From Streptomonospora nanhaiensis (lineage in GTDB: Bacteria; Actinomycetota; Actinomycetes; Streptosporangiales; Streptosporangiaceae), in NCBI RefSeq assembly GCF_013410565.1, contig NZ_JACCFO010000001.1, positions 1,550,001-1,614,000 of the forward strand: a stretch of DNA of 64,000 nt. The letters run 5' to 3'. Positions 34,261 to 49,606 of this stretch are shown piece after piece; position 1 is the first letter of the stretch, and each line of letters opens with the position of its first letter. The translations under genes and the position numbers were made by a program. The notes beneath the pieces are model-generated. The model did not search any database, had not been told where the DNA came from, and worked only from the letters and a program-made list of their open reading frames with translations.

Positions 34261-35952
34261 TCAGTGGACGTGGGCTTCCGGGGCGCGGCCGGCGGGTGCG
34301 GCGATGTCGATGACGCGTCCGCAGCGTGCGAGGGTCTCGGCGCGGTGCGAGGCGATGAGGACCGTGCCGTCGAAGTCGGCGATGACGGTGGAGATCGCCC
34401 GTTCGGTGTCCGGGTCGAGGCTGGCGGTGACCTCGTCGACGAGCAGCACGCGGGGGCGCCGGACCAGGGCGCGGGCCAGGCAGAGGCGGGCCCGCTGTCC
34501 GCCGGAGAGCCGTACCCCGTCCTCGCCGAGGTCGTCGTCGAGGCCGATCCAGCCGGCGGCGCCCACGCGCTGGAGCACGGCGGCCAGTTCGCCGTCGGAG
34601 CGCGGTCCGGTTCCGCGGAGCAGGTTGTCGCGCACGGTGCCGTGGAACAGCGTCGCGTCCTGGTCGACCAGGGCGACCGCGCCGCGCAGCGCCGCGTCGT
34701 CGAGTTCGGTGAGGGGGACGCCCGCACCCTCCGCGGTGACGAGTTCGACGGTGCCCGCCGAGGGGTCCCAGAGGCGGGCGGCGAGCGCGATGACGGTGCT
34801 CTTGCCGGCCCCGGAGGGTCCGGCCAGTCCGACGTGCTCGCCGGGTGCCACCTCGGTGGACCAGGACGTGAGGGTCGGCGGCCGGGCGTCGTAGGCGAAG
34901 GACACGTCGCGGAACCGGAGCCCGAGCGGCCCCTCGGGCAGCCGACGCGGCGCGCGCGGGGCGGCCACGACCGGGGGGCGGTTGATGCCGGCGGCGACCC
35001 GGTCGGCGCCGGCGACGAGGGGGTGGAGCTGGGTGAGCGTCGTGGTGGCGTCCGTGATCGCCCCGACCCCGGCCACGGCCAGCGCCACGAGGGCGGGCAG
35101 GAGCGCCGGGGACAGCCGCGCGTCGGTGCCCCCGGTCAGCACCCCCGCGGCGGCGGCGCTGACGGCGATGACGCCGATGACCACGGCGGTGACGATGAGT
35201 TCCCGCACGGCCGTGACGAGCTGCGCCAAAAGTTCCCGGCGGCGCGTGATCGCGGTGGCGCGCCTGGTGGCGGTGTCGGTGTCGGCGATCACGCGGGGGG
35301 CGAGCCGGTAGGCGAGCACCTCGCGGAGGGCGCCGAGCGCGTCGACGGTCCGCGCGGACAGGGCCGACCGCTCGTGCTGCTCCCGCTCCCCCAGCCGCCG
35401 CGCCGTCCGCGCCCAGTACAGGGCGGTCGTCGCCACGGCCGCGCCGCCGGCGAGCATGACGGCCCCGGCCTCCGGCAGCAGGACGGCCGCGGTGGCCAGG
35501 GCGGCGAGGAACACGGTGATCGAGGCGCCGAGCTGGGCGACGGTGTGGGCGTAGAAGAACTCGAGCTTCTCGATGTCGCCCATGGCGACGGTGGCCGCGC
35601 GTCCGGAGTGCTCGCGCCGGCGTCCGGGGACGCTGCGCGCGTAGGCGTCGAACAGCGCCATCCGCAGCCGGGCCAGGACGCGGTAGGCCAGGGCGTGGGA
35701 GACGTCCATCTCCTGCCAGGTCAGGACGGTGCGCAGCAGCACGAGCCCGATGACCGGGACCCACCAGGCCGGTCCGGGCGGTGTCCGGTCGACGACGGCG
35801 TGGCCCACCGCCCACGCCGTGAGCACGGTGAGGGCGGCCAGGGCGAGCGCGCTCACCGTGCCGACCAGGTAGCTCCACAGCATCCCGCGCCACTCGGGGC
35901 GCAGGGCGGGCAGCAGGCGGCGGAGGGTCCGGAGCGCGGAGGCGGTGTTCAC
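34261..35952 (-). CDS. ABC transporter, fused permease-ATPase (subunit B)
   Basis: A 563-residue type IV ABC half-transporter. About six membrane helices (from WSYLVGTVSALALAALTVLT onward) precede an ATPase domain with Walker A GPSGAGKST, signature LSGGQRARL, Walker B VLLVDEVTASLD and the His switch in IASHRAETL. It starts at a GTG that overlaps the stop of the upstream gene by four bases, so it is the last gene of the precursor-led operon. With the product of 35949-37634 it should form a heterodimer of the CydDC/IrtAB shape. Export of the modified peptide is likely; import is possible because IrtAB-type proteins import. Confidence 0.92.
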   Translation of the reverse strand: MNTASALRTLRRLLPALRPEWRGMLWSYLVGTVSALALAALTVLTAWAVGHAVVDRTPPGPAWWVPVIGLVLLRTVLTWQEMDVSHALAYRVLARLRMALFDAYARSVPGRRREHSGRAATVAMGDIEKLEFFYAHTVAQLGASITVFLAALATAAVLLPEAGAVMLAGGAAVATTALYWARTARRLGEREQHERSALSARTVDALGALREVLAYRLAPRVIADTDTATRRATAITRRRELLAQLVTAVRELIVTAVVIGVIAVSAAAAGVLTGGTDARLSPALLPALVALAVAGVGAITDATTTLTQLHPLVAGADRVAAGINRPPVVAAPRAPRRLPEGPLGLRFRDVSFAYDARPPTLTSWSTEVAPGEHVGLAGPSGAGKSTVIALAARLWDPSAGTVELVTAEGAGVPLTELDDAALRGAVALVDQDATLFHGTVRDNLLRGTGPRSDGELAAVLQRVGAAGWIGLDDDLGEDGVRLSGGQRARLCLARALVRRPRVLLVDEVTASLDPDTERAISTVIADFDGTVLIASHRAETLARCGRVIDIAAPAGRAPEAHVH

Positions 35953-37634
35953 CGGGTACTCATCTCCAGGTGTCCGGCGTCCAGGCGCAGCACGGTGGCG
36001 ACGCCGGCGAGTGCCTCGGGACGGTGGCTGATCATGATGACGATGCGGTCGCGGGCGACGCGGTGGAGTGTCTCGACGACCTCTGCGGCGCGGTCGGCGT
36101 CCAGCGCGCTGGTGGGCTCGTCGACGAGGAGGACCGGGCGGCGCGCGAGGAGGGCCCGGGCGAGGGCGAGGCGCTGGCGCTGCCCGCCCGACAGGTTCGC
36201 GCCCGCTTCGGCGACCTCGGTGTCGAACCCGCGGGGAAGGCCGCGGATCTCGTCGAGGACTCCGGCCGCCCGGCACGCGGCGGCGAGGTCGGACTCCTCC
36301 GGCGTGCCGGTGACGGCGAGGTTGTCCCGGACGGTTCCGGCGAAGAGCACCGGGCGCTGGGAGACCACCGCGATGTCGTCGGGGCGCACGGGCCGGCCGT
36401 CGAGGGTGATGCGGCCGGAGTCGGGGGTGAGGAAGCCGAGGAGCAGGTCGAACAGGGTGGACTTCCCCGCTCCGGACTCTCCGACGATCGCGGTGAGCGA
36501 TCCGCGCCGGGCGGTCAGACTGAGGTGGCGCAGGACGTCGTCGCGGGCGCCGGGATAGCGGAAGCTCAGGTCTGCGACGTGCAGCACCTCCGCACGGCCG
36601 TCCGCGGCCGCCGTGCCGGGCACGGCGCCTCCGGAGGGGTGGGACGCCGGCCCGCCCTGGGCGGCGCGCCGCGCCGTGTCGTGGTCCGGGGTGAAGGCGC
36701 CGAGCTCGGCCAGGCCGGGGACGGCGGTGAGCCCGAGGAATCCGGCGTGCCAGTGCCGTGAGAGGTCGCGGATCGGGCGGAACGCCTCGGAGGCGAGCAG
36801 GAGGACCAGGTAGGTCTCGACGGCGGGGGCCTGCCCGGTGGCGGCGTGGCCGAGGGCCGCGGCCGCCGCGGCGACGACGCCCGCCTGCACCGCGAAGTCG
36901 ATCACGGCGGTCTCGGCCAGCGAGACCCGCATGACGCGTTCGGTGGCGCGGCGCAGCGCCTCGGAGCGGGCGTCCAGCCGCTGCCGGGTGCCGGGCACGT
37001 CGCCGAGTGCGCGCAGGGTCGCCATGCCGCGCAGGGATTCGAGCAGGTCGGCGCTGAGGGCCTCGTAGCTGTCCCAGTGGTCGAGCCCCCGCCGGGCCAT
37101 CATCCGCTTCCACGCCATGGGCCCCAGCAGCGCCAGCACGATCCCCGCCGCCACGCACAGCCCCGCCGCCGGCGAGATCAGGAGCAGCGCGGCCACCACG
37201 AGGGGGCAGGCGAGGAGCACCTGCGCGACGGCGGGGATGTACTTCGAGACGTAGGCGTCGGTGCCGTCGACGCCGTCGCCCAGGCCGGCCCGCACCGCCC
37301 CGGCCCGGGCGGCGGTGTCGTGCAGCCGTTCGGGCACCAGCGCGGCCCGCATCGCGCGGCGGCGCAGGCGCTGCCGGACGCGGCCGCCCAGCCCGGCGGC
37401 GGCGGAGGTCTGGCCGAGGGAGAGCAGCGTGCGCGCCAGCGCGATCCCGACGATCAGCGCCAGCGCGGCGGACACGTCCCCGGGGTTTCCGCTTAGCACC
37501 GCGGACATCGCCCAGGCGACGGCAACGGCCTGGGCGAGGTGGGTGAGGAGGACGAGCACCAGCAGCGCGGTACTGCGCGTCAGCGCCGCGGGGAACCGGG
37601 CCGCCTCCCGCCAGAGTTCGGCGACGATCATCAT
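35949..37634 (-). CDS. ABC transporter, fused permease-ATPase (subunit A)
   Basis: A 561-residue half-transporter. About six membrane helices (TALLVLVLLTHLAQAVAVAW; VLLACPLVVAALLLISPAAG) are followed by an ATPase domain with Walker A GESGAGKST, signature LSGGQRQRLALARALL and Walker B PVLLVDEPTSALD. The ATG at 37634 overlaps the stop of the SagB-type gene by four bases. It has no N-terminal C39 peptidase, so leader removal must be done by another enzyme in the cluster. Together with subunit B it forms the transporter encoded in the precursor operon. Confidence 0.92.
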   Translation of the reverse strand: MMIVAELWREAARFPAALTRSTALLVLVLLTHLAQAVAVAWAMSAVLSGNPGDVSAALALIVGIALARTLLSLGQTSAAAGLGGRVRQRLRRRAMRAALVPERLHDTAARAGAVRAGLGDGVDGTDAYVSKYIPAVAQVLLACPLVVAALLLISPAAGLCVAAGIVLALLGPMAWKRMMARRGLDHWDSYEALSADLLESLRGMATLRALGDVPGTRQRLDARSEALRRATERVMRVSLAETAVIDFAVQAGVVAAAAAALGHAATGQAPAVETYLVLLLASEAFRPIRDLSRHWHAGFLGLTAVPGLAELGAFTPDHDTARRAAQGGPASHPSGGAVPGTAAADGRAEVLHVADLSFRYPGARDDVLRHLSLTARRGSLTAIVGESGAGKSTLFDLLLGFLTPDSGRITLDGRPVRPDDIAVVSQRPVLFAGTVRDNLAVTGTPEESDLAAACRAAGVLDEIRGLPRGFDTEVAEAGANLSGGQRQRLALARALLARRPVLLVDEPTSALDADRAAEVVETLHRVARDRIVIMISHRPEALAGVATVLRLDAGHLEMSTR

Positions 37635-38731
37635 GGCGCGGCCTCCCCGTCCGCGCCCGGGCCGCCGGGAAGCATCGCCAGGGCGTGCACGGTCCAGCGG
37701 CCGCGGGTGGCGGTGAAGCCGGACACCGGACGGCAGCGCCACCGCCCCGACGCGGCGCCCGCGTAGCACAGGGCGGCCGCGGCCCGGTGGGCCCGCCACA
37801 GGACGCCGGCGACGGCGGCGGCCGGGGCGGCGGTCGCGACCGACCACGTTTCGAGGCGGTGGGCGCCCAGGATCCACGCCTGCCCGCACGCCGCCGCGGC
37901 GCGTTCGGCTCCGGCCGCGCGCGGCCGGTGCCGCGCCGCGCGGGTGAACTCGCTGATCGCCGGCGACCGGCGGCCGGCCAGGGCGGCACGGCGCCCGGGG
38001 TCCGGAGCCCAGGCGGCCGGCAGCTCCACGGCCGCGAGGGGGATCTCCGGGGCGAGTCCCTGGGCGAGCCACCGCTCGTGCTCGGCGGCGCGGGGCACGC
38101 CGAGCAGCCCGCGCAGCGCCGCGCTCGGGCCGAGCAGCACCCGGGCGGGCTCCGCGCGGACGAGGAACTCCACGGCGGCGAGCGCGTAGGCGGTGTCGGC
38201 GATCCACAGCGGCCAGGCGCGATGGCGGTAGCGGCCGAAGCTGCGGCCCGGCTGGACGGTCAGGACCACGTGCGTCCCCGCCGGCGGGTGGCCGGCGGGG
38301 TCGGTGCGGCGGCCGACCGCGCGCTCGGCGCGGTCGTCACGTCGCAGCAGCGTGTCGTGCTCGTGGTCGTAGACGTACCGGCCCGCCTCCAGGGTGCCGC
38401 CGGCGGTGCCGACGACCAGGTGGGTCTGCACCGGGTAGGCCCCTCCGGCCGAGGGCACCGGGCGCCTGCGGACCCCGGTGAGGGTGCCGTCGGGCAGCCG
38501 GTGGAACCCCTCACCGGACCACAGCCCGGTGAGCAGGTCCCGTTCGCGGCCGCAGACCGCCACCGGGACGGCGCCGACCCGGTGCCAGGGGTTGACGCGC
38601 GGCCCGGGCGGGGCCGCCGGGCCCGGGGGGTCGGCGGCGAACGCGCGCGCGAGGACGGCGGGAAGGCGGGGCGGTTTCGTCGGGCGGGGCGCGCGGCGTG
38701 CCCGGCCGGGCGGATGGTCGGTGGAGAACAC
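37631..38731 (-). CDS. SagB-type azoline dehydrogenase
   Basis: A 366-residue protein of the SagB/McbC flavin oxidoreductase family, recognised by PSAGGAYPVQTHLVV (the SAGGLYP motif) and GRYVYDHEHDTLLRR. Further conserved regions are WIADTAYALAAVEFLVRAEP and a C-terminal FMN-fold part. These enzymes oxidise azolines, made by YcaO proteins from Ser, Thr or Cys, to aromatic azoles using FMN. The GTG start at 38731 lies seven bases after the YcaO stop, with AAGG inside that junction. Its presence predicts oxazoles in the product, since the precursor's candidate core has Ser but no Cys. The divergent C-terminal half makes substrate details uncertain. Confidence 0.82.
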   Translation of the reverse strand: MFSTDHPPGRARRAPRPTKPPRLPAVLARAFAADPPGPAAPPGPRVNPWHRVGAVPVAVCGRERDLLTGLWSGEGFHRLPDGTLTGVRRRPVPSAGGAYPVQTHLVVGTAGGTLEAGRYVYDHEHDTLLRRDDRAERAVGRRTDPAGHPPAGTHVVLTVQPGRSFGRYRHRAWPLWIADTAYALAAVEFLVRAEPARVLLGPSAALRGLLGVPRAAEHERWLAQGLAPEIPLAAVELPAAWAPDPGRRAALAGRRSPAISEFTRAARHRPRAAGAERAAAACGQAWILGAHRLETWSVATAAPAAAVAGVLWRAHRAAAALCYAGAASGRWRCRPVSGFTATRGRWTVHALAMLPGGPGADGEAAP

Positions 38732-38738
38732 GGGGGCC

Positions 38739-40178
38739 TTACATGTGCGGGGGCGGGACGAGGGTGAAGTCCTTTGGGCCGCCGCTCCACGTCGTGCGCC
38801 ACCGGCGTTCCGCGGCCGCGTCCGCGAAGCGGGGCATGCCGAGATAGGCGAAGGCGGCGGGGGCGTTGGGGACGAGCCCGGTGATGAAGGTCCGCACCAC
38901 GCGCAGCGGCGTCCGGCGGATGTCGGTCGTGGTCAGGTCGCGCGTGAGGATCCGGTGGCCGCGGCGGGCCAGCCGCCGGTAGACCTCGTCCATCGTGACC
39001 GGCTCCAGGGCGGTGATCGGGCGGGTGCCCAGGACCGGCGCGGTGAAGCGCCGGGCCTCCTCGTGGACGCGCGGGTCGAGCCAGAGCTGGACGTGGGCGC
39101 CGAGGTCGATGATGTTCTCGCACTGCTCGCCGGCGGCGTCGCGGTAGGCGGCGTCGTCGCGGAAGTCCAGGTAGAGGCCGCGGGCGAGCAGGCCGTGCTC
39201 GACGGCGCGGAACACCCAGCCGTCGGCGGTGGTGCACCCCTGGGTGTAGACCCAGGTGTGGATGGCTTCGAGGACCGCCTTGCGGGCGGCCCGGACCGGG
39301 TCGCAGGAGGCGGAGAAGCCCGCCGCGTACAGGCCGCGCTCCTCGTCGTGCACGAGTGCCGCCACAGCGGGGGCGAACTCCGAGGGCATGGCCACCAGGA
39401 AGACGCGCAGGGAGCCGCCGCCGAGGTCCGCCTGGAGGCCGGGGACGCTGGCGGGGTCGATGCCGAAGGCGGGGCCGTCGAGGTGCCACCACAGTTCGAG
39501 GGCGTCGCGTTCGACGATCTCCAGGACCCCGCGGTCGCGGGCGTCGTCGGCGCCCTGGCCGGTGGCGATACCGGCGTAGTTGAGGTGGTGGGTGCGGGGC
39601 AGGCTCCGGAAGCGCGCCTGCCGCCAGTTGAGGTGGATCAGCGAGGCGGGCACCCACACCGGGGCGCCGTCAAGGCCGGCGCACCGCGCCCACAGGGTCG
39701 GCGTGGCCTCGGTGAGCGGCCGGTAGGGGAACCCCTCGCGGGCGTACTGCCACGGGGCGAACACCGGCAGGTCCGCCAACGCGATCGGGTCGGCGCCCGC
39801 GGCCACCAGGTCCGCGCGGGAGGCGACGCGCAGGTCGTCGTCGGGGAGTTCGGCGGGGAGCCAGTTGCCGCAGTAGCGTTCGACCCCTTCGGCGATCGCG
39901 GCGATCCGGGCCTGGGCGGGGTCGCCGAAGGAGGTGCCCAGCGAGACGCGGTCGGCGGGCCACTCGCCGAGCCGCCGCGCGTCGGAGACGGCAGCGGTCA
40001 TCGCCACGTAGGACGCCGGTGCCCCGGCGGGGTGCGGCACCGCCCGGACGGACCGGATGATCCCGCACTCGGGGTCGACCAGTGCCTCGACGGGCAGGGG
40101 GCGCTCGTCGGCGTGCGGGGTGGGGGCGGTCCCGCCGGCCTCCCGCGGTGCGTGGCCGGCGGCTGCGGTCAGGGTCAC
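38739..40178 (-). CDS. YcaO cyclodehydratase
   Basis: A 479-residue YcaO-domain protein. ATP-binding signatures include TSFGDPAQARIAAIAEGVER, then YCGNWLP, GVLEIVERDALELWWH and KAVLEAIHTWVY. The C-terminus ends in a proline-rich tail (TLVPPPHM), a feature of azole-forming YcaO proteins that places the terminus in the active site. YcaO enzymes use ATP to cyclise Ser, Thr or Cys side chains on to the backbone, giving azolines. It lies between the S15-like hydrolase and the SagB-type gene. The GTG start at 40178 overlaps the preceding stop by four bases and has AAAGGA upstream. Confidence 0.93.
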   Translation of the reverse strand: MTLTAAAGHAPREAGGTAPTPHADERPLPVEALVDPECGIIRSVRAVPHPAGAPASYVAMTAAVSDARRLGEWPADRVSLGTSFGDPAQARIAAIAEGVERYCGNWLPAELPDDDLRVASRADLVAAGADPIALADLPVFAPWQYAREGFPYRPLTEATPTLWARCAGLDGAPVWVPASLIHLNWRQARFRSLPRTHHLNYAGIATGQGADDARDRGVLEIVERDALELWWHLDGPAFGIDPASVPGLQADLGGGSLRVFLVAMPSEFAPAVAALVHDEERGLYAAGFSASCDPVRAARKAVLEAIHTWVYTQGCTTADGWVFRAVEHGLLARGLYLDFRDDAAYRDAAGEQCENIIDLGAHVQLWLDPRVHEEARRFTAPVLGTRPITALEPVTMDEVYRRLARRGHRILTRDLTTTDIRRTPLRVVRTFITGLVPNAPAAFAYLGMPRFADAAAERRWRTTWSGGPKDFTLVPPPHM

Positions 40179-41185
40179 GGTGGGGTCCTTTCGTGGCGCC
40201 AGGTCCCTGACGCGGGGTCGAGGAGCGACCGCGTGCGCGGCGCGGCCGTGGGCGCGAGGACGCCGGTCCACGCCGCCGCGGTACCGGGCAGCCCGTGCGC
40301 CGACAGCCACGGGTCGATGATGTGGGCCAGTCCGCCCGCCGCGGTGATGCGGGCCCGCTGGGCGGTGTCGGCGACTCCCCCGACGAGGCCGTGCCCCCAG
40401 GGGCCGCTGGCGAAGTGGCTCGCGGCGTTCCAGGAGCGTGCGAGGCGCTGGGCGTCAGCGTGGAAGAAGTCGTCGTCGCCGCTGATCACCAGGAGCGGCG
40501 CGGCGACGCGGCCGTAGCGCGACGGCAGGTCGAGCCGCTGGGCGGTCCACAGCCGCCTCCAGCCCGCGCGCGCCCGCGGCGACCAGCCCCAGTCGGCGGC
40601 GGCCTCGATGACGCCGCGCTCGCGCGCGTGCGCGACGCGCCGGTCCAGCTCGGCGGGCGGCAGCGGGGGTTCGGAGCGGGGGGTCCGCCCGTGCTCGTGC
40701 CACCAGCCGATCCGGTGCCGGATCTGCGGGGTGCCGTCGGGGCCCCACGCGGTCTCGGCCGGCCCGAGCGCGGGGACGAGCACGATGACCGCCGCGACGG
40801 GGCCCAAAGGGCCGCCGCCGGCCGCCTCGGCGGCGGCGCGTGCGGCCTCCAGAGCGGTGTGGGCGGCGTAGGAGGCTCCGAAGAGGACCACCGGGAGCCC
40901 GGGGCGCTCCGCCGCCAGCCGCGCCAGGACCGCGCCGCCGTCGTCGTGCTCGTGCGTGTAGGGGGACCAGTGCCCCTCGGACCGGTACCGTCCGCGCACG
41001 TCCTGCACGAGGCAGTGGTAGCCGCGCTCGTTCCACGAGCGCGCGATCGGCGCGTGCCGGTCCGCGTCGTAGGGGGTGCGGATCAGCACGATGCCTTCGG
41101 CGTGCGCGCACTCCCACCACCGTCCGCGCAGGACGGTGCCGTCGTGGGACGGGCAGTGGTGGTCGCGCGCGGCGGCGGCGGTCAT
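40175..41185 (-). CDS. S15/CocE-type alpha-beta hydrolase
   Basis: A 336-residue hydrolase of the X-Pro dipeptidyl-peptidase/CocE group. Family features are GYHCLVQDVRGRYRSEG, GASYAAHTALEAA (nucleophile Ser in G-x-S-x-A), the acid in ISGDDDFFHADAQ, and a late HGLVGG supplying the His. No signal peptide is seen, so it acts in the cytoplasm or on the exporting complex. It is inside the RiPP operon with 4-base overlaps on both sides, so it probably acts on the peptide: leader removal, trimming near a proline, or release of an ester. The cocaine esterase-like alternative cannot be excluded. Confidence 0.85.
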   Translation of the reverse strand: MTAAAARDHHCPSHDGTVLRGRWWECAHAEGIVLIRTPYDADRHAPIARSWNERGYHCLVQDVRGRYRSEGHWSPYTHEHDDGGAVLARLAAERPGLPVVLFGASYAAHTALEAARAAAEAAGGGPLGPVAAVIVLVPALGPAETAWGPDGTPQIRHRIGWWHEHGRTPRSEPPLPPAELDRRVAHARERGVIEAAADWGWSPRARAGWRRLWTAQRLDLPSRYGRVAAPLLVISGDDDFFHADAQRLARSWNAASHFASGPWGHGLVGGVADTAQRARITAAGGLAHIIDPWLSAHGLPGTAAAWTGVLAPTAAPRTRSLLDPASGTWRHERTPP

Positions 41186-42021
41186 GACGGCCGGGCCGCC
41201 GCGCCGTCGAGGGCCGGCGGCGGGTCGTAGGCCAGGACCGGGTGCTCGCTGAGCGTGCCGGTGGACGCGACGAGTCTCCACAGCGTGTTGCGGTAGCCCT
41301 CCAGCGTGTCCGCCTGCTGCGCCCAGGCGAGGGCGACGGTGAGGATCCGGCCGGCCAGCAGCGTGCGCGCGGCGGGCGGGAGTTCGTCGCGGGGGCCGGC
41401 GGCGGCGCGCTGCCAGGCGTCGAGTTGGCGGGGCACGGGGCTCGCCGCCAGGCGGCGGCGCCGGACCTGATCGGCGGTGGGGTCGCCGGGGGTGAGGCTG
41501 ATCGGGTCGACGAAGCAGACCCCGCCCTCACGGTAGGCGCGCAGCCACGCGACGCCCTCGCCGGGCAGCGTGTCGAGCAGGTCCCACCGGGCGCGTTCGG
41601 CGGGTGAGTCGGCGTAGGCGATCACGAGGTCCCAGGGCCGGCCGGGCCGTCCGCGGCCACTCGCCGCCGCGTCGGCGGACAGGCGGGCGGGGGACACGCC
41701 CCATCCGGTGAGGGCGTCGGCCAGCGCCTCGACCGGCGCGCCGTGTCCGACCAGCCCGACGCCGCGCCGCGCGCTCGGCCAGCGGCGCTCGGCGTCGGCG
41801 TCCTCGCGGGCGGCCATCTGCGCGGCCAGCTTCTCGGCGTAGGCGCCGGCCTCCGGGTCGTCGGCGGGCGCGCCGGACAAGGCGCCGACGAGGCCGGCCG
41901 GCGGGTGCCGCAGGCGGAGGAAGGTCCCCGAGGACGTGCGCACGACGCCGGTGCCGTCGTGGTCGACGAGCACGTCGGCACCGCTCCCCGGTACGCGGGC
42001 GACAACGGGTTCTGGGGTCAT
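41182..42021 (-). CDS. E1-like leader-binding protein of azole RiPP cluster
   Basis: A 279-residue protein of the TOMM 'cyclodehydratase C protein' type (ThiF/E1-like). The N-terminal part (TSSGTFLRLRHPPAGLVGALSG) matches the leader-binding winged helix. The middle has VGLVGHGAPVEALADALTGW and WDLVIAYADSPAERARWDLL, the Rossmann-like segment. The end carries GEGVAWLRAYREGGVCFVDP and a helical tail. It is shorter than catalytic E1 enzymes and has no clear zinc-binding cysteines. Its expected role is to hold the leader and activate the YcaO enzyme. It follows the precursor gene by 83 bases that contain a hairpin; GAGAGG precedes ATG 42021. Confidence 0.82.
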   Translation of the reverse strand: MTPEPVVARVPGSGADVLVDHDGTGVVRTSSGTFLRLRHPPAGLVGALSGAPADDPEAGAYAEKLAAQMAAREDADAERRWPSARRGVGLVGHGAPVEALADALTGWGVSPARLSADAAASGRGRPGRPWDLVIAYADSPAERARWDLLDTLPGEGVAWLRAYREGGVCFVDPISLTPGDPTADQVRRRRLAASPVPRQLDAWQRAAAGPRDELPPAARTLLAGRILTVALAWAQQADTLEGYRNTLWRLVASTGTLSEHPVLAYDPPPALDGAAARPS

Positions 42022-42038
42022 CTGCGCCTCTCGAACGG

Positions 42039-42070
42039 CCCGGCCGGGCGGCGCAGGCCGCCCGACCGGG
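42039..42070 (-). terminator. hairpin between precursor and E1-like gene
   Basis: In the operon's own RNA a 14-bp stem with one G-U pair forms between CCCGGTCGGGCGGC (42070-42057) and GCCGCCCGGCCGGG (42052-42039), with a four-base loop. In RNA of the other strand the same position would be a C-A mismatch, so the stem is better in the sense direction. It stands between the precursor gene and the enzyme genes and could act as a partial terminator. Confidence 0.55.
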
Positions 42071-42104
42071 TTTCATATCCGCCTGACAGCGTCGCGGACG
42101 ATGA

Positions 42105-42215
42105 CTAGTCGAAGGGGTTCTCGACGAGGGCGTTGGAGTGCGAGGCGGACAGGTGCGCCAGCTGCTCGGGCTCCTCGATCTCGGCGACGATCTGCTGGTC
42201 CGTCTGCTGGTCCAT
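42105..42215 (-). CDS. azole RiPP precursor peptide, 36 residues
   Basis: A short frame from ATG 42215 to TAG at 42105. GAGGA stands seven bases before the ATG. The N-terminal part MDQQTDQQIVAEIEEPEQL is acidic and hydrophilic, as for leader peptides; the C-terminal part reads AHLSASHSNALVENPFD. It has three Ser at 23, 25 and 27, spaced by one residue, His at 21 and 26, and neither Cys nor Thr in the likely core. The gene heads the operon encoding the E1-like, YcaO and SagB-type proteins, so it is very probably their substrate. Pro16 and Pro34 flank the candidate core. I do not recognise the peptide as a named family. Confidence 0.88.
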   Translation of the reverse strand: MDQQTDQQIVAEIEEPEQLAHLSASHSNALVENPFD

Positions 42216-42287
42216 GGCGATGTCCTCTCTGTGCGACTGACGTACCGGCGCGTGTGCGTCGGCACGTGCTCTCGGGGAGCACAGCGC

Positions 42288-42323
42288 ACTCTACTTGATA
42301 ACGGTTTTCATTACCAATATTGT
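42288..42323. promoter_or_regulatory. divergent promoters overlapping a Zur-type box
   Basis: The 15-base element TGATAACGGTTTTCA (42296-42310) matches the actinobacterial Zur box TGAAAATGATTTTCA at 12 of 15 positions. Rightward: -35 TTGATA (42295-42300), a 17-base spacer and -10 TATTGT (42318-42323). This predicts initiation at or next to the ATG at 42332, that is, a leaderless message. Leftward: -35 TTGGTA (complement of 42312-42317), an 18-base spacer and -10 TAGAGT (complement of 42288-42293), about 70 bases before the precursor ATG. The operator would block both promoters in zinc-replete cells. Confidence 0.72.
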
Positions 42324-42331
42324 CTTTTTTC

Positions 42332-43534
42332 ATGACCGTGGACCAGCTCTTCGTGGCCGACTACCGCGCGGGCCGCACCTACGCCGTCGACGGCGGTGGC
42401 GCCCGCGTGCTCGGCCGCGGGGTGCTCGCCGAGCACGCCGGGGTCCTGGCGCTGCCGCGCGGCGGTGCGACCGACGCGCAGTGGGCGTTCGTCGACGACC
42501 GGTCCGGCGCGCTCGTGGCGCTCGGCCCCGGCGGTGAGCGGCGCGTTCCCGTGGCCATCCCCGGTGAGCACCTCGCCTGCGACCCCTCGGGGCGCTACGT
42601 GGTGGTGACCACCGGTCTCGGCGCCAACGCGTCGGCGTGGAGCGACGTCGTCACCGTTGTCGACCTGCCGGCCGGCGAGTCCGTGCGGTTCCGCTCGCGG
42701 ACGGGCGAGCCCGGGGCGCTGGTGGTCCCCGACCAGGCCGGCGGCGAGCCGGTGGCCGTGCTGCGCCACCGCGAGCCCGGAGCCGTCGAGGCGCTCCCCC
42801 TCACCCGGTGCCTCGACGCCGGCGCCCATGTGCCCGCGCTCGCCGGCGCCGTCCTCGACGGGATCGCCGACGACGGCCACGGCGATGTCGTGGACCAGCG
42901 CACCGGCGTCGCGGCGACCGCGACGAGCAGGGGCCTGGAGCGGTTCGTCGTCGACGACGGCGTGCCGCGGACGATCGGCGTCGTCCCCTGGCCGGTGCCC
43001 GGACGCGCCTTCTACCTGCGCTTCGACCCGGCCACCGGCCGCGCCGTGGGCGTGGTGCGCGGCGGGCCGGCCGCACCGGCCGCGTGGACCCGCTGGACCA
43101 ACCACCTGGTCGACATCGACCTGTCCACCGGCGACACGCGCTGCCTGGAACTTCCACCGGGACTGGCGTTCCGGTTCGCGCTCGGCGGCGGGCGGGCCGC
43201 GGTGGCCACGATCCACCCCGAGCAGGACGAACTGACCCTCGTCGAGCGCGCCGGGCCGGAACTGCGCGTCCTGTACCGCAGGCCGCTTCCCGCGATGTCG
43301 CGTCCGCCGGCCGCCGGGCGCCTGCCGTGGGACCCGGTGGGCGACGCTCCCGCGCAGCGCCGCGCCGTCGCCCTCGACCCCTCCGGCACGACCGCCGCGG
43401 TGACCCGCGGCGGCGACGCCGAACTCCACCTGGTCCGCGAGGACCGCCTCGACACCGTCGGCATGCCGAGCCCGCTGGACGAGGGCGGGCACCTGCACTG
43501 GTCCGGCGGCGGCTTCGACCCCGTTGGCCGGTAA
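42332..43534 (+). CDS. beta-propeller-like protein of unknown role
   Basis: A 400-residue soluble protein with repeated blade-like units: strands such as QLFVADYRAGRTYAVDGGGA, AQWAFVDDRSGALVALGPGG, GRYVVVTTGLGANASAWSDV, THLVDIDLSTGD-like NHLVDIDLSTGDTRCLELPP, and RAVALDPSGTTAAVTRGGDA. It lacks a hydrolase domain and a signal peptide. The blade pattern resembles the propeller part of S9 peptidases, and the next gene encodes such an enzyme; the start of that gene overlaps this stop (TAATG). ATG 42332 has no ribosome binding site and lies where transcription should begin, hence probably leaderless. Function is unknown; a substrate-presenting or metal-complex-binding role is possible. Confidence 0.75.
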   Translation: MTVDQLFVADYRAGRTYAVDGGGARVLGRGVLAEHAGVLALPRGGATDAQWAFVDDRSGALVALGPGGERRVPVAIPGEHLACDPSGRYVVVTTGLGANASAWSDVVTVVDLPAGESVRFRSRTGEPGALVVPDQAGGEPVAVLRHREPGAVEALPLTRCLDAGAHVPALAGAVLDGIADDGHGDVVDQRTGVAATATSRGLERFVVDDGVPRTIGVVPWPVPGRAFYLRFDPATGRAVGVVRGGPAAPAAWTRWTNHLVDIDLSTGDTRCLELPPGLAFRFALGGGRAAVATIHPEQDELTLVERAGPELRVLYRRPLPAMSRPPAAGRLPWDPVGDAPAQRRAVALDPSGTTAAVTRGGDAELHLVREDRLDTVGMPSPLDEGGHLHWSGGGFDPVGR

Positions 43535-45303
43535 TGCCGAACACCTCTCGCACCCCCTCGCCGATGACCGTGCCCGCCCTCGACGCCGCGTTGGCCTCGT
43601 GGGAGCGCCACGGGCGCCCCGGCCTTCCCGACCGCGGATTCGCTCTCAGCAGGCTTCCGGGCCGCCGGCGGCGGGGGATCTACCGGGTCGGCGGCACCGC
43701 ACCGGTCTTCGAGCCTGACGGGCACATCCTGCGCATGGCGCCCTCGCCCGACGGGCGCTCCATCGCCGTTCAGCTGGCCGACCGCGCCGACGAGGACGCC
43801 GCCTTGGCGGTGGTCGACACCGCGACGGGCGCCCTGCGCACCTACCCGGAGGTCCGCTGCCGCTACGACCCCATGCTCTGGAGCGCGGACTCCGCCCTGG
43901 TCGAACTCGCCGCGGGCGGGTCGCGCCGGTTCGTCGGCCTCGACGCGGCCACCGGCCGGCTCCGGACCTGGGCGGTGCCGCCGGACGTACGGCTCCGGCT
44001 GTTTCCCGGCGGGGCCCGCGGGGTGCTCGCCGAAAGCCGCCCCGGCCGGCCCACCGTCCTCACCGACCGCGCCACCGGCACCCGGCTCGGCGCGTTCAGC
44101 GCCGTCATGCGGGTGCTGGCCGCCGGAGACGACGTCCTGGTCCACGACGGAGCACGCCTCCACGCCGTCGACCCGCGCAGCGGCACCCCGCGATGGTCCT
44201 GGGCGGACCCGTCCCTGCGGATCACCTCGATCGCCGCCCGCGGCACCGACGTGCTCGTGGCCGGCGTGCGCGCGGGCCGCAGTGTGCTACTGCGGGTCGC
44301 CCAGGGGGCGGTCACCGCCGACCGGGCGGTGGCCTACCGGGGCGGTCCGGCCGTCGCGACCGAGGTGGGCGCCGACGCCGACGGGTTCCACGTCCTCGTC
44401 GAGGGCCCGGTCCTTCCCCCGCGGGTCGTCGCGGCCGACCGGCTCCTGGCCCAACGGCCCGCCGCGACCGCGCCGCCCGCCTTCGCGCGCACCGACCGGC
44501 ACGCGGTCACCGCCGACGACGGCGCCCGCGTGCCGGTCGTGGTCACCTCGCCCGCGGGCGCGACCGGCCCCACCCCGCTGATCCTGACCTGCTACGGCGG
44601 CTTCGGGGTCCCGAGCCTGCCCACGTTCGAACCGACGGTGCCGGCGTGGATCGCGCACGGCGGACGGTACGCGATCGCGCAGATCCGGGGCGGCGGCGAG
44701 CACGGGGCGGCGTGGCGCGAGGCCGGGCGGGGCAGTGCCAAGGCCCGCGGCATCGGCGATCTGGCCGCCGCGGCACGCGGGCTCGTCAGCGCCGGACTCA
44801 CCCGCCCCGACCTGCTCGTCCTGGCCGGCGCGTCCCACGGCGGCGTCGTCGCGGCCGGCTGCGCGTTCGAGTCCCCCGGCCTGTGCGCCGGGGTCGTCAG
44901 CACCGCCGCGCCGCTCGACCTGCTCAACCTCGGCGCCCATCCGCTCGGGAGGCACTGGATCGGCGAGTTCGGCGGTCCGGACGACGGCGGGCGGGCCGAG
45001 CGCCTCCGCCGGATCTCGCCCCTGCACCGCGCCAGAGAGCTCCCCGCCGGCACCGCCCTGCCCCGCTTCCTCGGCATCGTCTTGGACGAGGACTCCCGCG
45101 TGGTCGCCGACGACACCCAGGCGGTCGTCGACACGCTGCGCCGGGCCGGCGGCGACGCGGCCCTGTGGCGCGCGCCTGGAACCGGCCACGGCGGCAACCA
45201 CCTCGACAGCCTCCACCGCCTGGGCGCCACCGTCCTCAGCTTCGCCGCGATCGCGACGCGATCGACGCCGACCACCCCGTCAACGGCCGGAAAGGGCTTC
45301 TGA
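43534..45303 (+). CDS. prolyl oligopeptidase-like S9 family enzyme
   Basis: A 589-residue S9 hydrolase. The N-terminal 320 residues form a propeller (RMAPSPDGRSIAVQLADRAD; YDPMLWSADSALVELAAGGS). The C-terminal alpha-beta hydrolase domain contains LILTCYGGFGVPSLPTFEPT, AQIRGGGEHGAAWREAGRG and the nucleophile Ser434 in GASHGG. Asp520 is the likely acid in DEDSRV, and His552 lies in GTGHGGN. There is no signal peptide, so it acts inside the cell. In this cluster it could cut the modified peptide after Pro16 or Pro34, or degrade an imported metal complex to free zinc. The first residues are uncertain; ATG 43546 is also in frame nearby. Confidence 0.9.
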   Translation: MPNTSRTPSPMTVPALDAALASWERHGRPGLPDRGFALSRLPGRRRRGIYRVGGTAPVFEPDGHILRMAPSPDGRSIAVQLADRADEDAALAVVDTATGALRTYPEVRCRYDPMLWSADSALVELAAGGSRRFVGLDAATGRLRTWAVPPDVRLRLFPGGARGVLAESRPGRPTVLTDRATGTRLGAFSAVMRVLAAGDDVLVHDGARLHAVDPRSGTPRWSWADPSLRITSIAARGTDVLVAGVRAGRSVLLRVAQGAVTADRAVAYRGGPAVATEVGADADGFHVLVEGPVLPPRVVAADRLLAQRPAATAPPAFARTDRHAVTADDGARVPVVVTSPAGATGPTPLILTCYGGFGVPSLPTFEPTVPAWIAHGGRYAIAQIRGGGEHGAAWREAGRGSAKARGIGDLAAAARGLVSAGLTRPDLLVLAGASHGGVVAAGCAFESPGLCAGVVSTAAPLDLLNLGAHPLGRHWIGEFGGPDDGGRAERLRRISPLHRARELPAGTALPRFLGIVLDEDSRVVADDTQAVVDTLRRAGGDAALWRAPGTGHGGNHLDSLHRLGATVLSFAAIATRSTPTTPSTAGKGF

Positions 45304-45307
45304 CTCC

Positions 45308-46480
45308 ATGCCCGAAACAACGAGCGGACACCCCGGGGCGACGACGCCGGACCGCTCCCCCACCGCCTCGCGCGCAGCGCACGACACCCCCCGCGGCGTC
45401 CCGCCCGCCCCCGCCGCGGCCGCGCCCCGCCGGCGCGGCGCGCTCGCGGTGCGCGTCCTCGTCCCCGCCCTGACGCTCGCGCTGGCGGCGCTGCTGCTGC
45501 TGTCAACGAGCATCGGCACCATCGGGGTGTCGCCGGCCGACGCCTTCCGGATCATCCTCGGGCACCTCGTGCCCGGGATGCCGTGGATGTCGGACGGGTC
45601 GCTGACCACGGTGCAGGACAACGCCGTCTGGCAGTTCCGGCTGCCCCGCGTCCTGCTGGCCGCCCTCACCGGTGCCTCGCTCGCCCTGGCGGGCGCGCTG
45701 ATCCAGGCGGTGGTCCACAACTCGCTCGCCGAGCCCTACATCCTCGGCGTCTCGGCCGGGGCGGGCGTGGGCGCGGTGTCGTTCATCGTCCTGGGGATCG
45801 GGATCAGCTCGCTGGGGATCGGCGCCTCCGCCTTCGTCGGCGCGCTGCTGGCGACCGGCGCGGTGTACTTCCTCGCCCGCAAGAACGGGCGCATCGCGCC
45901 GCAGCGGCTCATCCTGGCGGGCGTCGCGCTGGGCTCCCTGTTCAGCGCGGTGACCAGCTACCTCACCATCACCACCGACGCGCAGAACGTGTTCAGCATC
46001 ATGTTCTTCCTGCTCGGCTCGGTCTCGGCCGCCACCATGGGGCACCTCGCCCTCCCGGCCTCGGCGCTGCTCGCCGTCGGCGTGCTCACGGCCTTCCGCG
46101 CACGCGCCCTCAACGCCCTCCTCGTCGGCGACGACGCGGCGGCGTCCCTCGGCGTGAACGTGAACCGCCTGCGGACGGCGGTCCTCGTGGCCGCGGCGCT
46201 GCTGACCGGTTCGGTCGTCGCCGTCTCGGGCGGGATCGGGTTCGTCGGGCTGGTCATCCCGCACATCGCGCGGATCGTGGTGGGGTCCGACCACCGGAAG
46301 ATGCTGCCGGTCGCCGTGCTCGCCGGAGCGGTGTTCCTCGCCGGTTCGGACCTTCTGGCGCGGACGCTCGCGGCGCCGTCGGAGATCCCGCTGGGCGTGC
46401 TGACCGCCCTGGTCGGTGCGCCGTTCTTCCTGTGGCTGCTGCGGCGCGACCGCGCGGAGAGCGTGGGGATGAGCCGATGA
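45308..46480 (+). CDS. FecCD-family metallophore permease
   Basis: A 390-residue permease of the FecCD/BtuC family, with about ten membrane helices after a 45-residue polar N-terminus. Recognisable parts are FRLPRVLLAALTGASLALAG, NSLAEPYILGVSAGAGVGA, GDDAAASLGVNVNRLRTAVL and GFVGLVIPHIARIVVGSDHR. These permeases take up siderophores, heme, cobalamin or zinc chelates as a homodimer with an ATPase. It lies four bases after the S9 gene and overlaps the ATPase gene by four bases. Its place under a Zur-type box suggests a zinc-chelate substrate rather than an iron siderophore. Confidence 0.92.
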   Translation: MPETTSGHPGATTPDRSPTASRAAHDTPRGVPPAPAAAAPRRRGALAVRVLVPALTLALAALLLLSTSIGTIGVSPADAFRIILGHLVPGMPWMSDGSLTTVQDNAVWQFRLPRVLLAALTGASLALAGALIQAVVHNSLAEPYILGVSAGAGVGAVSFIVLGIGISSLGIGASAFVGALLATGAVYFLARKNGRIAPQRLILAGVALGSLFSAVTSYLTITTDAQNVFSIMFFLLGSVSAATMGHLALPASALLAVGVLTAFRARALNALLVGDDAAASLGVNVNRLRTAVLVAAALLTGSVVAVSGGIGFVGLVIPHIARIVVGSDHRKMLPVAVLAGAVFLAGSDLLARTLAAPSEIPLGVLTALVGAPFFLWLLRRDRAESVGMSR

Positions 46481-47313
46481 GAGTCGACATCGAGAACCTC
46501 TCCGCGCACCGGGGCGGCCGGCCGGTCGTGGCCGACGTGACCGTCTCCGTGCCCTCGGGCACGGTCCTCGGGCTGCTGGGGCCCAACGGCAGCGGCAAGT
46601 CCACGCTGCTGCGCGCCGTGTCGGGCATCGCGGCCCCGTCGTCGGGGCGGGTGCGCCTCGACGGCGCCGACGTCGCGTCGCTGAGCCGCAAGGAGGTCGC
46701 CCTGCGGGTGGCGGTCATGGCGCAGGAGCACAGCGAGGAGTTCGAGATCCCCGTCCTGGACATGGTCCTGCTCGGGCGCATCCCGCACGGGCACGGCTTC
46801 GGCCGCGACTCCGACCGCGACATCGCCGTCGCCCTGGACGCCCTGGACCGTGTCGGCGCCGCGCACCTGCACCACCGCTCGTTCTCGGCGCTCTCGGGCG
46901 GCGAGCGGCAGCGGGTGCTGTTCGCCCGCGCGCTCGCCCAGGACACCCCCGTGCTCGTCCTCGACGAGCCCACCAACCACCTCGACATCGCCCACCAGCT
47001 TGAGCTGCTCGACCTCGTCCAGGCCGCCGGCAGGACCGTTGTCGTGGCCCTCCACGACCTCAACCTCGCCGCGCGCTTCTGCGACACCGTCGGCGTCCTC
47101 GTCGGCGGGCGGCTGACCGCGCTGGGAGCCCCGGAGGAGGTCCTGGACACCGACCTGATCCGTTCGGCGTTCGACGTCGACTCCACCGCGGTCGTCCACC
47201 CGCGTTCGGGCCGGCGGCACTTCATCTTCGACGCCCGCAGCACCCCGCGGCGCGCCGAAGGCCCGGCCCACGACCCGTCCGTTTCAGCCCCGGAAGGAAT
47301 CACCCTCCCATGA
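46477..47313 (+). CDS. FecE-type ABC ATPase for metallophore uptake
   Basis: A 278-residue ABC ATPase: Walker A GPNGSGKSTLLRAV, Q-loop VMAQEHSEEFE, signature LSGGERQRVLFARAL, Walker B VLVLDEPTNHLD and the His switch in VVALHDLNLAARF. The order and length fit FecE/BtuD proteins that power FecCD permeases. ATG 46477 overlaps the permease stop by four bases and its own stop overlaps the binding-protein start by four bases, so the three parts are translated together. Confidence 0.94.
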   Translation: MRVDIENLSAHRGGRPVVADVTVSVPSGTVLGLLGPNGSGKSTLLRAVSGIAAPSSGRVRLDGADVASLSRKEVALRVAVMAQEHSEEFEIPVLDMVLLGRIPHGHGFGRDSDRDIAVALDALDRVGAAHLHHRSFSALSGGERQRVLFARALAQDTPVLVLDEPTNHLDIAHQLELLDLVQAAGRTVVVALHDLNLAARFCDTVGVLVGGRLTALGAPEEVLDTDLIRSAFDVDSTAVVHPRSGRRHFIFDARSTPRRAEGPAHDPSVSAPEGITLP

Positions 47314-48353
47314 TCCGCTCTGCGTCCCCCGCCGCCGCGGCGAGCCGTGCCCGCCGCCGCACCCCCCTGCCCGCGCTCGCCGCCGCCGCGGCCCTGCCGC
47401 TGGTGCTGTCCGCCTGCGGGACAGGGGTCACCAGCGGCTCCGATGCGGCCGACGGCTCGGGCGAGGCGGTGACGATCACCAACTGCGGCCGCGAGCTCTC
47501 CTTTGACTCAACCCCCACCAGCGTCGTCGGCATGATGCCCTCGCAGACCGAACTGCTGATCCGCCTCGGCGCCCTGGACTCCCTCGTCGGCCAGGCCCAG
47601 ACCGACGTCTCACCGCTGCCGGACGACATCGCCGACCAGGCCGCCGACATCCCGGTGCTCAGCACCGACGTACCCCCGGCGCGCGAGGACCTCCTCGCCG
47701 CCGCCCCCGACCTGGTGGTCTCCCCCACGGAGTACGAGTTCACCGCCGAGCAGGGCTTCGCCAGCATCGAACAGCTGAAGCAGAACGGCGCCCAGGCCTA
47801 CGTCGCGACCGGCGGCTGCCTCGACCGCCGCAACACCGCGGAGGTCACCGACGTGCTGACCGACATCGAGAACCTCGGTGCGATCCTGCGCGTGCCCGAT
47901 GTCGCCGAGGAGCTCTCCCAGGACGCCGAGGCGCGGCTGTCCGACGTCGAGGCCGCGATCGGCGACGTGCCCCGCCGCACGGTCGCCCAGGTCTACGTCG
48001 AGGGCAACTCGCTCCAGGCGATCGGCGCCGGAATCGAGGCGGACATCATCGCCACCGCCGGCGGGGAGAACGTCTTCGACCCCGACGCACCCGAGTTCGC
48101 CGACTTCTTCGCCGCCGAGATCACCCCCGAGGAGATCATCAGCCGCGACCCCGACGCCATCGTCTTCAGCGTGTCGAGCCCCGAGTCCGAGGAGAACACC
48201 CGCGACTACCTTGAGCGGACCTTCCCCGACGTGGCCGCCGTGAAGAACGACCGCCTCATCGCCGTCCCCAAGAGCGACCTGTTCCCCGGCACCCTCGGAA
48301 ACATCGACGCCGTCGAACTCATCGCCCAGGAGCTGTACCCGGACGCGTTCTAG
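47310..48353 (+). CDS. metallophore-binding lipoprotein (FecB/BtuF type)
   Basis: A 347-residue periplasmic-binding-protein-like lipoprotein. The signal sequence ends in the lipobox LSAC (about residues 33-36). The two lobes carry the family pattern: TSVVGMMPSQTELLIRLGAL, AREDLLAAAPDLVVSPTEYE, then IGAGIEADIIATAGGENVFD, and RDPDAIVFSVSSPE near the end. It should capture a metal chelate outside the membrane and deliver it to the FecCD permease. It ends the Zur-controlled uptake operon, and a strong hairpin follows. No His-rich loop typical of direct zinc-binding ZnuA proteins is present, which fits a chelate rather than free zinc. Confidence 0.92.
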   Translation: MIRSASPAAAASRARRRTPLPALAAAAALPLVLSACGTGVTSGSDAADGSGEAVTITNCGRELSFDSTPTSVVGMMPSQTELLIRLGALDSLVGQAQTDVSPLPDDIADQAADIPVLSTDVPPAREDLLAAAPDLVVSPTEYEFTAEQGFASIEQLKQNGAQAYVATGGCLDRRNTAEVTDVLTDIENLGAILRVPDVAEELSQDAEARLSDVEAAIGDVPRRTVAQVYVEGNSLQAIGAGIEADIIATAGGENVFDPDAPEFADFFAAEITPEEIISRDPDAIVFSVSSPESEENTRDYLERTFPDVAAVKNDRLIAVPKSDLFPGTLGNIDAVELIAQELYPDAF

Positions 48354-48452: not shown

Positions 48453-49574
48453 TCACTGCGTGCCGAGCGTCTGGTCGAAGGGGTCCTCCTGGAACGCCGG
48501 CCAGGTCTCGCCGGGGGCCAGCAGGCAGGAGTCGAGGAGCGCGGTCAGGCGTTCGGTGTCCAGGTCCAGACCGGTGAAGGCCAGGTGCTGGCGGCGGTCG
48601 CCCACGGCCGGGTCCCAGTCCAGCCGGGCCGAGAGGCGGCGGGCCGGCGGTACCAGCTCCGCGGCCGCCTCGGGCAGCGAGGCCAGCCACGGCCCCGCGC
48701 TCTCGATGGCGAGCAGGTCGCTGTGGGAGTCCCACACCAGGAGCGTGTCGGGCCGGCTGGCCAGCCAGATGCGGCCGCGGCCGCGCAGGCAGCCGGCGAC
48801 GATCTCGGCCAGGGCGTCGTGCAGCCGCTCGGGATGCAGCGGCCGCGTGCGCGTCCAGGTGAAGGTGGCCACCCGCCCACCGGAGCACGGCGTGTACTGC
48901 GCCCAGGCCGGGTTCGCCCGCGCGGCCGCGGCGTCCGGGTCGAACGCGCCGCGGGCGATGTCGGCGATTCCCGGTCCGAGCGGTATCACGGCGGCGGCCG
49001 GGTTGAGCTGCTCCAGGAGAGGGACCGCGTCCTCGGGACGCCGGTCGCCGGCGACCACGAGCGCGCTCGGGTACTCGATCTGGCGGGTGAGCACCTCGGC
49101 CACGGTGCGGTCGTCGTCCTGGGCGATGTCCAGCCCGCGGTCCACCAGGTCGTCGTGGCCGCTCAGGTCCGCGACCAGGCGCCCGGTGTCCACGGCCGTG
49201 ACGACGGCGGCCAGGGCCAGCGACTCCTCGGCCGCCACGGCCGTGGACACGGCGCGGGGGTCGACCGACTCCCAGCCCTCGACCACGCACAGCTCGTAGG
49301 CGTTCTGGCCGGCCAGCCGCCGCAGGAGCGGGACGAGGTCCTCGCGCAGCGCGCAGGACGCGCACGCGTGCACCAGCTCGATGGGGCGCTCGTCGTGTGT
49401 TCCCCACCGGTCCCGGATGGAGCGCCGCACGACGCCCTCGCCGACCTCCTCGAAGCCGTGGTGCACCGCGACGGACCTCGGCACGGCGGCGAGCAGCGCC
49501 TCGACCGCCTGCCGCCGAGCCGCGCGGTGCAGGCCCGTGGCGACCACCACACGCAAGGGGGCGCGTTCCTCCAT
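48453..49574 (-). CDS. COG0523 family protein, MRF-like, Zur-box controlled
   Basis: A 373-residue COG0523 (CobW-like) protein of the actinobacterial MRF subgroup. It starts RVVVATGLHRAARRQAVEALL and so lacks the usual Walker A GKT of CobW GTPases. The metal motif reads HACASCALREDL, with C-x-x-C instead of CXCC. The C-terminal CobW domain (TFTWTRTRPLHPERLHDALA, then GRGRIWLASRPDTLLVWDS) is present. In Mycobacterium smegmatis MRF is induced by zinc starvation and recruits a ribosome hibernation factor (from memory). ATG 49574 has GGAG close upstream, and a Zur box lies 18 bases above it. Confidence 0.85.
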   Translation of the reverse strand: MEERAPLRVVVATGLHRAARRQAVEALLAAVPRSVAVHHGFEEVGEGVVRRSIRDRWGTHDERPIELVHACASCALREDLVPLLRRLAGQNAYELCVVEGWESVDPRAVSTAVAAEESLALAAVVTAVDTGRLVADLSGHDDLVDRGLDIAQDDDRTVAEVLTRQIEYPSALVVAGDRRPEDAVPLLEQLNPAAAVIPLGPGIADIARGAFDPDAAAARANPAWAQYTPCSGGRVATFTWTRTRPLHPERLHDALAEIVAGCLRGRGRIWLASRPDTLLVWDSHSDLLAIESAGPWLASLPEAAAELVPPARRLSARLDWDPAVGDRRQHLAFTGLDLDTERLTALLDSCLLAPGETWPAFQEDPFDQTLGTQ

Positions 49575-49591: not shown

Positions 49592-49606
49592 TGAAAATCA
49601 TTATCA
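49592..49606. promoter_or_regulatory. Zur box (14/15)
   Basis: Read leftward the element is TGATAATGATTTTCA, differing from the actinobacterial consensus TGAAAATGATTTTCA at one position. It lies 18 bases upstream of the MRF-like gene's ATG. A second TTTTCATT block adjoins it. Confidence 0.82.

Follow-up and report, generated by a model that had tools for sequence, protein, structure and literature searches.

The window analysed here is a 64,000-nucleotide stretch of Streptomonospora nanhaiensis DNA (contig NZ_JACCFO010000001.1, positions 1,550,001 to 1,614,000), in which lists of open reading frames (ORFs) and family scans identify two divergent sets of genes (Table 1) that make up a cluster for a ribosomally synthesised and post-translationally modified peptide (RiPP). 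The left-going set comprises amiA, which encodes the precursor peptide, and the genes for AmiB, AmiC, AmiD, AmiE, AmiT1 and AmiT2, whilst the right-going set encodes a 400-amino-acid (400-aa) protein, an S9 family peptidase and FecCD-, FecE- and FecB-type proteins. A box of the type recognised by the zinc regulator Zur, TGATAACGGTTTTCA, lies between the two sets at exactly 42296-42310, as an initial annotation of the window had placed it. The precursor, the YcaO protein, the FecB/FecCD/FecE-type genes and the two ABC half-transporters named in that annotation are likewise present (as ORFs with Pfam and NCBIfam matches, several of these below cut-offs). Of the azole-forming toolkit that it named, the YcaO assignment has a clear Pfam match, the SagB assignment corresponds to a weak match, and the E1-like assignment of AmiB comes from the literature, where it was made by Phyre2 analysis (PMC8442711). 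The AmiC hydrolase, the 400-aa protein, the S9 peptidase and a second Zur-type box (49592-49606) did not figure in it. The cluster already falls in a known family, and the link to zinc is the new part.

Family membership is indicated first by the precursor, which passes the NCBIfam model NF040714, 'streptamidine family RiPP', scoring 66 bits where 40 are required. Streptamidine, from Streptomyces albidoflavus J1074, is the dehydrated hexapeptide HLSATH with a six-membered amidine ring; related precursors are reported from more than 230 species, and the major architecture, represented by more than 90 clusters, consists of amiA-E, T1-T2 and the FecBCDE-like F1-F4 (PMC8442711). The window shares amiA-B-C-D-E-T1-T2, FecBCDE-type genes and the kind of core (HLSASH, as against HLSATH) with the J1074 cluster, from which it differs in the divergent orientation of the importer operon, in having one FecCD gene where the latter has four Fec-type genes F1-F4, and in its additional S9 peptidase (PMC8442711). 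The same gene order recurs on plasmid pNit of Rhodococcus rhodochrous, where the precursor is annotated 'streptamidine family RiPP', the YcaO protein is 72% identical to AmiD of the window and a perfect box separates the divergent operons. We accordingly regard membership of the streptamidine (ami) family as almost certain. The novelty that the initial annotation had claimed for such a system is lost, since the precursor passes the streptamidine model and metal import had already been proposed in 2021, the authors suspecting it on account of the Fec-type genes (PMC8442711). The term 'Zur' is absent from the main text of that paper, and we found no report of Zur control of the family among the open-access titles and abstracts listed, a search outside which most subscription papers and supplements lie, so that absence is unproven; of 12 open-access papers that mention streptamidine, two also mention zinc, namely PMC8442711 and a paper on thiolutin.

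The Zur protein of Streptomyces coelicolor binds a 15-base-pair (bp) palindrome of 7-1-7 form, tGaNNatSatNNtCa, and the pattern TGANAANNNTTNTCA is identical to the middle of the znuA Zur motif published for actinobacteria (PMC5472717). When up to two mismatches are allowed, the window contains three matches at two places, one place being read on both strands, and shuffled sequences give 0.06. The 6.28-Mb genome holds four perfect sites, which belong to the ami promoter, the COG0523-type gene of Table 1, znuA and a position (G000:C1:6165065) without a clear neighbouring gene; allowing one mismatch raises the number to 16, as against five for the pattern read backwards, though some of the 16 stand beside no gene that one would look for in a Zur regulon and may have arisen by chance. 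Those with one mismatch include sites at znuC-znuB-zur, at a divergent ABC-3 permease/ATPase pair and at a ribosomal protein S18 paralogue (identities from Pfam). The predicted Zur regulon can thus be placed at G000:C1:6132009 (S18 paralogue), 6071946 (ABC-3 pair), 1920722 (znuC-znuB-zur) and 2175717 (znuA). The motif, which stands before the znu genes of the genome, is strongly predicted to be the Zur box of this organism.

Table 1. Features of the ami cluster and its flank, in positions of the window
Feature	Position	Strand	Evidence or remark
amiA, precursor peptide	42105..42215	-	36 aa, MDQQTDQQIVAEIEEPEQLAHLSASHSNALVENPFD; ORF, NCBIfam NF040714
Zur-type box TGATAACGGTTTTCA	42296..42310		separates amiA from the divergent operon
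AmiB, E1-like partner	41182..42021	-	label from the literature (PMC8442711, Phyre2)
AmiC, CocE/S15-type hydrolase	40175..41185	-	Pfam PF02129, E=1.4e-15
AmiD, YcaO protein (ring formation)	38739..40178	-	Pfam PF02624, E=1.9e-37; TIGR03604, 190 bits (cut-off 219)
AmiE, distant SagB-type dehydrogenase	37631..38731	-	TIGR03605, E=2e-7, 31 bits (cut-off 78)
AmiT1, ABC half-transporter (export)	35949..37634	-	PF00005 and PF00664; best NCBIfam CydD, below cut-off
AmiT2, ABC half-transporter (export)	34261..35952	-	PF00005 and PF00664; best NCBIfam CydC, below cut-off
400-aa protein kept in ami loci	42332..43534	+	ORF
S9 family peptidase	43534..45303	+	PF00326, E=5.7e-26; prolyl oligopeptidase 1yr2, E=5.7e-34
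FecCD/BtuC-type permease	45308..46480	+	NCBIfam TIGR03869, BtuC and FecD models, all below cut-offs
FecE-type ATPase	46477..47313	+	NCBIfam TIGR03873 and FecE models, below cut-offs
FecB-type substrate-binding lipoprotein	47310..48353	+	PF01497, E=1.3e-21
COG0523/CobW-type GTPase, zinc-starvation type	48453..49574	-	PF07683, E=2.3e-17; MRF and ZigA models below cut-offs
Second perfect Zur-type box	49592..49606		upstream of the COG0523-type gene

Conservation of the box was examined in related loci obtained from a search with AmiB that gave matches in 26 of 297 genomes of the order at E<=1e-8, a search with AmiD that gave matches in 33 of 394 genomes of the class at E<=1e-40, some of them to distant YcaO proteins, and a scan of genome contigs that took the best 80 of 188 relatives (79 Streptomyces, 1 Microtetraspora); the S. 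albidoflavus J1074 locus is not among the ami loci fetched. The box count was entered by 126 loci, of which 115 were kept, and a box was accepted at up to one mismatch in ten fixed positions within target regions that covered 450 bp upstream of the amiA core and some 400 bp ahead of the gene for the 400-aa protein. A box is present at one or both of these promoters in 103 of the 115 loci, and, as five of the other 12 hold neither region, in 103 of 110 testable ones; by side, the counts are 70/107 for amiA and 83/104 for the other promoter, the divergent layout letting one box count twice. The sample is rich in Streptomyces and the loci are therefore not independent. When they are grouped by AmiD identity, a box occurs in some member of 80/87 testable groups at 95%, 39/40 at 90%, 22/23 at 85% and 10/11 at 80%, and it accompanies 26 of the 27 loci with an identical HLSATH core. 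Of the ami loci, 101 are at least 16 kb long; 98 of these carry a box anywhere and 73 a perfect one, whereas only two of 20 control loci with a YcaO gene outside the ami family carry any box, both with one mismatch (the controls, up to 18.5 kb long, were chosen from 51 listed YcaO places, none among the AmiD matches). This comparison led us to discard the idea that boxes of this kind go with YcaO loci in general. Of 1889 random 450-bp windows placed in the ami loci outside the amiA region, 48 contain a box, true boxes elsewhere in the clusters included, and the 2.21 Mb of sequence in the box count yields 34 further boxes and two occurrences of the backward pattern, one of them inside a target region.

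These counts give strong support, at the level of sequence, to the statement of the initial annotation that biosynthesis and a chelate-type importer have a divergent promoter and a Zur-type box in common. A Zur-type operator conserved inside their promoter ties the ami genes to zinc starvation, and control of the window's cluster by Zur through this predicted operator is, in our judgement, very probable. It is highly improbable that the box is no working Zur site, with an importer for iron, cobalt or corrinoid beside which the link to zinc is accidental, even though the Fec-type families, to go by the names of their models, usually carry iron chelates or corrinoids and binding by Zur is a prediction: the box keeps its place in the amiA promoter from one distant lineage to another, occurs seldom in the genome and also precedes the znu genes. 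Iron (IdeR-like) and nickel (Nur-like) control were both rejected, since, by their consensus sequences, the 86 kb of target regions hold no IdeR-like site at up to 5/19 mismatches (two occur elsewhere) and the ami loci no perfect Nur-like one.

The placement of the box is consistent with an operator. The core motif follows the 70 amiA-side boxes at a distance of 110-169 bp; a -10-like TANNNT begins within 0-4 nucleotides (nt) after the box in 66 of them, as against about 1% elsewhere in these upstream regions, and a TTG stands 4-10 nt before it in 36, as against about 2%. On the amiA strand of the window, TTGGTA is followed by 18 nt with the box inside and then by TAGAGT (read by eye), and on the opposite strand a promoter-like TTGATA-17-TATTGT spans the same box, so that a Zur dimer bound there would, as predicted from these motifs, cover both promoters.

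The gene neighbourhood was compared as well. Relatives of the window's proteins occur in the 101 long loci as follows: AmiB in 99, AmiC in 101, AmiD in 101, AmiE in 91, AmiT1 in 101, AmiT2 in 99, the 400-aa protein in 98, FecCD in 98 and FecE in 101. FecCD provides the safer count of importers because FecE can cross-match ABC half-transporters; the initial annotation, which was to fall if FecBCD genes never accompanied YcaO, is not refuted on this count, with a FecCD-type gene nearby in 98 of 101 loci. The Streptomyces loci have their Fec-type genes in the orientation of amiA and upstream of it. In the window, the end of the FecB gene is adjoined, on the opposite strand, by the COG0523-type gene with a perfect Zur-type box of its own, and a relative of this gene occurs in 27 of the 101 long loci, 19 of these relatives being at least 40% identical.

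The product of the cluster is predicted by analogy. The core HLSASH, taken from the position of HLSATH in streptamidine, has the His1, Ser3, His6 and ALV motif of the family within HLSASHSNALVENPFD. Across 118 core copies from 107 precursors, Ser3 and His6 are found in all 118 and His1 in 116, and the Ser, Asn, Ala, Leu, Val, Pro14 and Phe15 that follow the core are invariant (118/118), with positions 2, 5, 12 and 16 the most variable of the core segment; 11 of the 107 precursors have the leader-core-follower unit doubled within one ORF (loci L035, L039-L043, L049, L051 and others of our set). The 16 residues of HLSASHSNALVENPFD include three Ser, no Thr and no Cys, and thus do not form the Ser/Thr/Cys-rich core of a linear azole peptide, a feature that ami-family cores likewise do not show (PMC8442711).

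The initial annotation envisaged a zincophore with oxazoles, formed along the usual azole pathway, for which YcaO, E1-like and SagB-like proteins would indeed be the toolkit; the AmiE dehydrogenase is moreover essential, though streptamidine itself is not oxidised, and minor oxazoline-type shunt products were described from amiE and amiX mutants (PMC8442711). The family product is nevertheless an amidine by nuclear magnetic resonance (NMR), with one water lost and its Ser and Thr side chains unmodified (PMC8442711), and the dehydrogenase of the window is a poor SagB match. Because the precursor passes the streptamidine model and the published NMR shows an amidine, azole chemistry was set aside, and we consider an oxazole product very unlikely. 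The associated mass prediction, a change of -18+2 Da per Ser, is wrong for a family product that loses a single water: the calculated [M+H]+ is 633.3103 for dehydrated HLSASH, and the same sum for HLSATH gives 647.3260, the published value (PMC8442711). By this analogy the window's product would be an amidine peptide from HLSASH, with leader removal, as proposed in the published work, by AmiC (PMC8442711).

As its genes appear to sit behind a zinc-starvation switch, the peptide is suggested to help collect zinc, and a zincophore role is plausible. We favour, with moderate confidence, a reading in which the ami cluster serves to acquire zinc under repression by Zur, its product being exported, re-imported by FecBCDE and broken down in the cytosol; that a peptide chelator is the means of acquisition is held marginally less firmly. 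When zinc is sufficient, zinc-loaded Zur on the one box between the divergent promoters would repress both sides. As zinc falls, AmiB, AmiC, AmiD and AmiE would turn the HLSASH region of AmiA, whose two His residues could serve as zinc ligands, into an amidine peptide, and AmiT1-T2 would export it. FecBCDE would then re-import the zinc chelate, and hydrolysis in the cytosol would free the metal, in the window's lineage perhaps by the S9 peptidase. This enzyme is closest to prolyl oligopeptidases and has an N-terminus without an obvious signal sequence (inspected by eye), so that a cytosolic release step is a possible function for it in this lineage only.

Several observations weigh against this reading. 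In the published experiments the hexapeptide bound none of seven metal ions, Zn(II) included, by liquid chromatography-mass spectrometry, showed no iron binding in the chrome azurol S (CAS) assay, and a YcaO mutant resembled the wild type under metal starvation (PMC8442711). With regard to the operator, at least six of the 16 genome sites at up to one mismatch look accidental in our own judgement, seven of the 110 testable loci are boxless at that threshold, as are 37/107 when the amiA side alone is considered, and 79 of the 83 boxes on the other promoter come with neither hexamer, for which reason simple blocking of the promoter has support on the amiA side alone. In all seven box-negative loci (L039, L041, L051, L090, L143, L148 and L150) the region contains a site with two mismatches, evidence of little weight. 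The invariant His residues are also weak evidence for zinc ligands because the whole precursor segment is near-invariant. Finally, only 27 of the 101 long loci yield a match to the window's FecB, a low number that may reflect divergence in Streptomyces rather than absence, the query perhaps being too distant, and the S9 peptidase is found in only 23 of them; as a general release enzyme it was rejected on this count.

The lack of metal binding by the hexapeptide and of a mutant phenotype under metal starvation would also suit a system in which Zur control is real and the peptide is no zinc chelator, acting instead as a signal, a zinc-sparing factor or an intracellular effector, or in which the Fec-type system imports another ligand; the authors themselves called the role of streptamidine unknown and suggested signalling or development (PMC8442711). 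We take this to be a genuine possibility, albeit an unlikely one, given that biosynthesis, export and a chelate-type importer under one zinc box is the layout of a metallophore system and that the importer is needed for the product, all pathway compounds being lost on deletion of amiF1-F4 (PMC8442711). The plain alternative for this loss is a polar or promoter effect of the deletion, in view of the upstream, same-strand position of the Fec-type genes in Streptomyces.

A more elaborate form of the zinc-acquisition reading, which we regard as doubtful, is that the ami clusters specify a family of ribosomal zincophores of which the published hexapeptide is the spent form, derived from a longer, zinc-binding product that is exported. 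Such a product would keep some of the SNALV.NPF tail, which is almost invariant, and may carry an AmiE-dependent oxidation; having bound zinc, it would be re-imported by FecBCDE and cut in the cytosol to HLSATH, HLSAT and HLSA. Were these three compounds breakdown products, loss of the importer would abolish them, in line with the published deletion, and metal binding would not be required of them, so that the need for the importer, the essential dehydrogenase, the metal-free hexapeptide and the conserved tail would all be explained.

For zinc acquisition by a re-imported peptide, methanobactin offers an analogy only: it is a ribosomal peptide metallophore that is exported and then taken up again, but it concerns copper and involves other enzymes and other regulation. 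We know of no tie between the clusters for bottromycin or klebsazolicin and either Zur or a Fec-type importer. Both compounds contain YcaO-dependent amidine rings, as does streptamidine, and klebsazolicin blocks translation, which streptamidine does not (PMC8442711). The biosynthesis of coelibactin, a predicted zincophore of Streptomyces coelicolor, is likewise repressed by zinc-bound Zur (PMC5472717), although coelibactin is a non-ribosomal peptide (PMC3430247), whereas the window's cluster is ribosomal. Of the features of zincophore systems, the window has a predicted Zur-type operator at both promoters, and an exporter and a chelate-type importer beside the biosynthetic genes. The operator in the ami promoter makes the role of the family directly testable in Streptomyces, and zinc starvation is the growth condition in which the published streptamidine experiments deserve repeating. 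If the zincophore role is correct, it would be common for actinobacteria to make zinc chelators ribosomally.

Some further observations concern individual proteins. AmiB gave no match in Pfam (E<=0.001) or NCBIfam (E<=0.01), and its profile, compared with solved structures, returned two hits up to E=10, the better of which (E=0.0057) is an unrelated enzyme, and thus nothing convincing. The 400-aa protein has no Pfam or NCBIfam match; a weak YVTN-propeller-like match (E=0.012), found amid clearly spurious ones, allows a guess at a beta-propeller, and by its position the protein is perhaps the amiX of the published cluster (PMC8442711), a candidate label. For the permease, ATPase and binding protein (45308-48353) the top-scoring models are those of the hypothetical 'F420-0 transporter' (TIGR03869, TIGR03873 and TIGR03868), with no score reaching its cut-off, and some proteins that go under this name might be metallophore importers. 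A second YcaO protein in the genome (G000:C1:6014327) exceeds the TIGR03604 cut-off, and its 18.5-kb neighbourhood is without a Zur-type box. Of seven distant YcaO loci with Fec-type neighbours (L056 and L102-L107; 34-38% identical to AmiD), six carry a box, perfect in two, and the zinc link may therefore reach beyond the ami clade.

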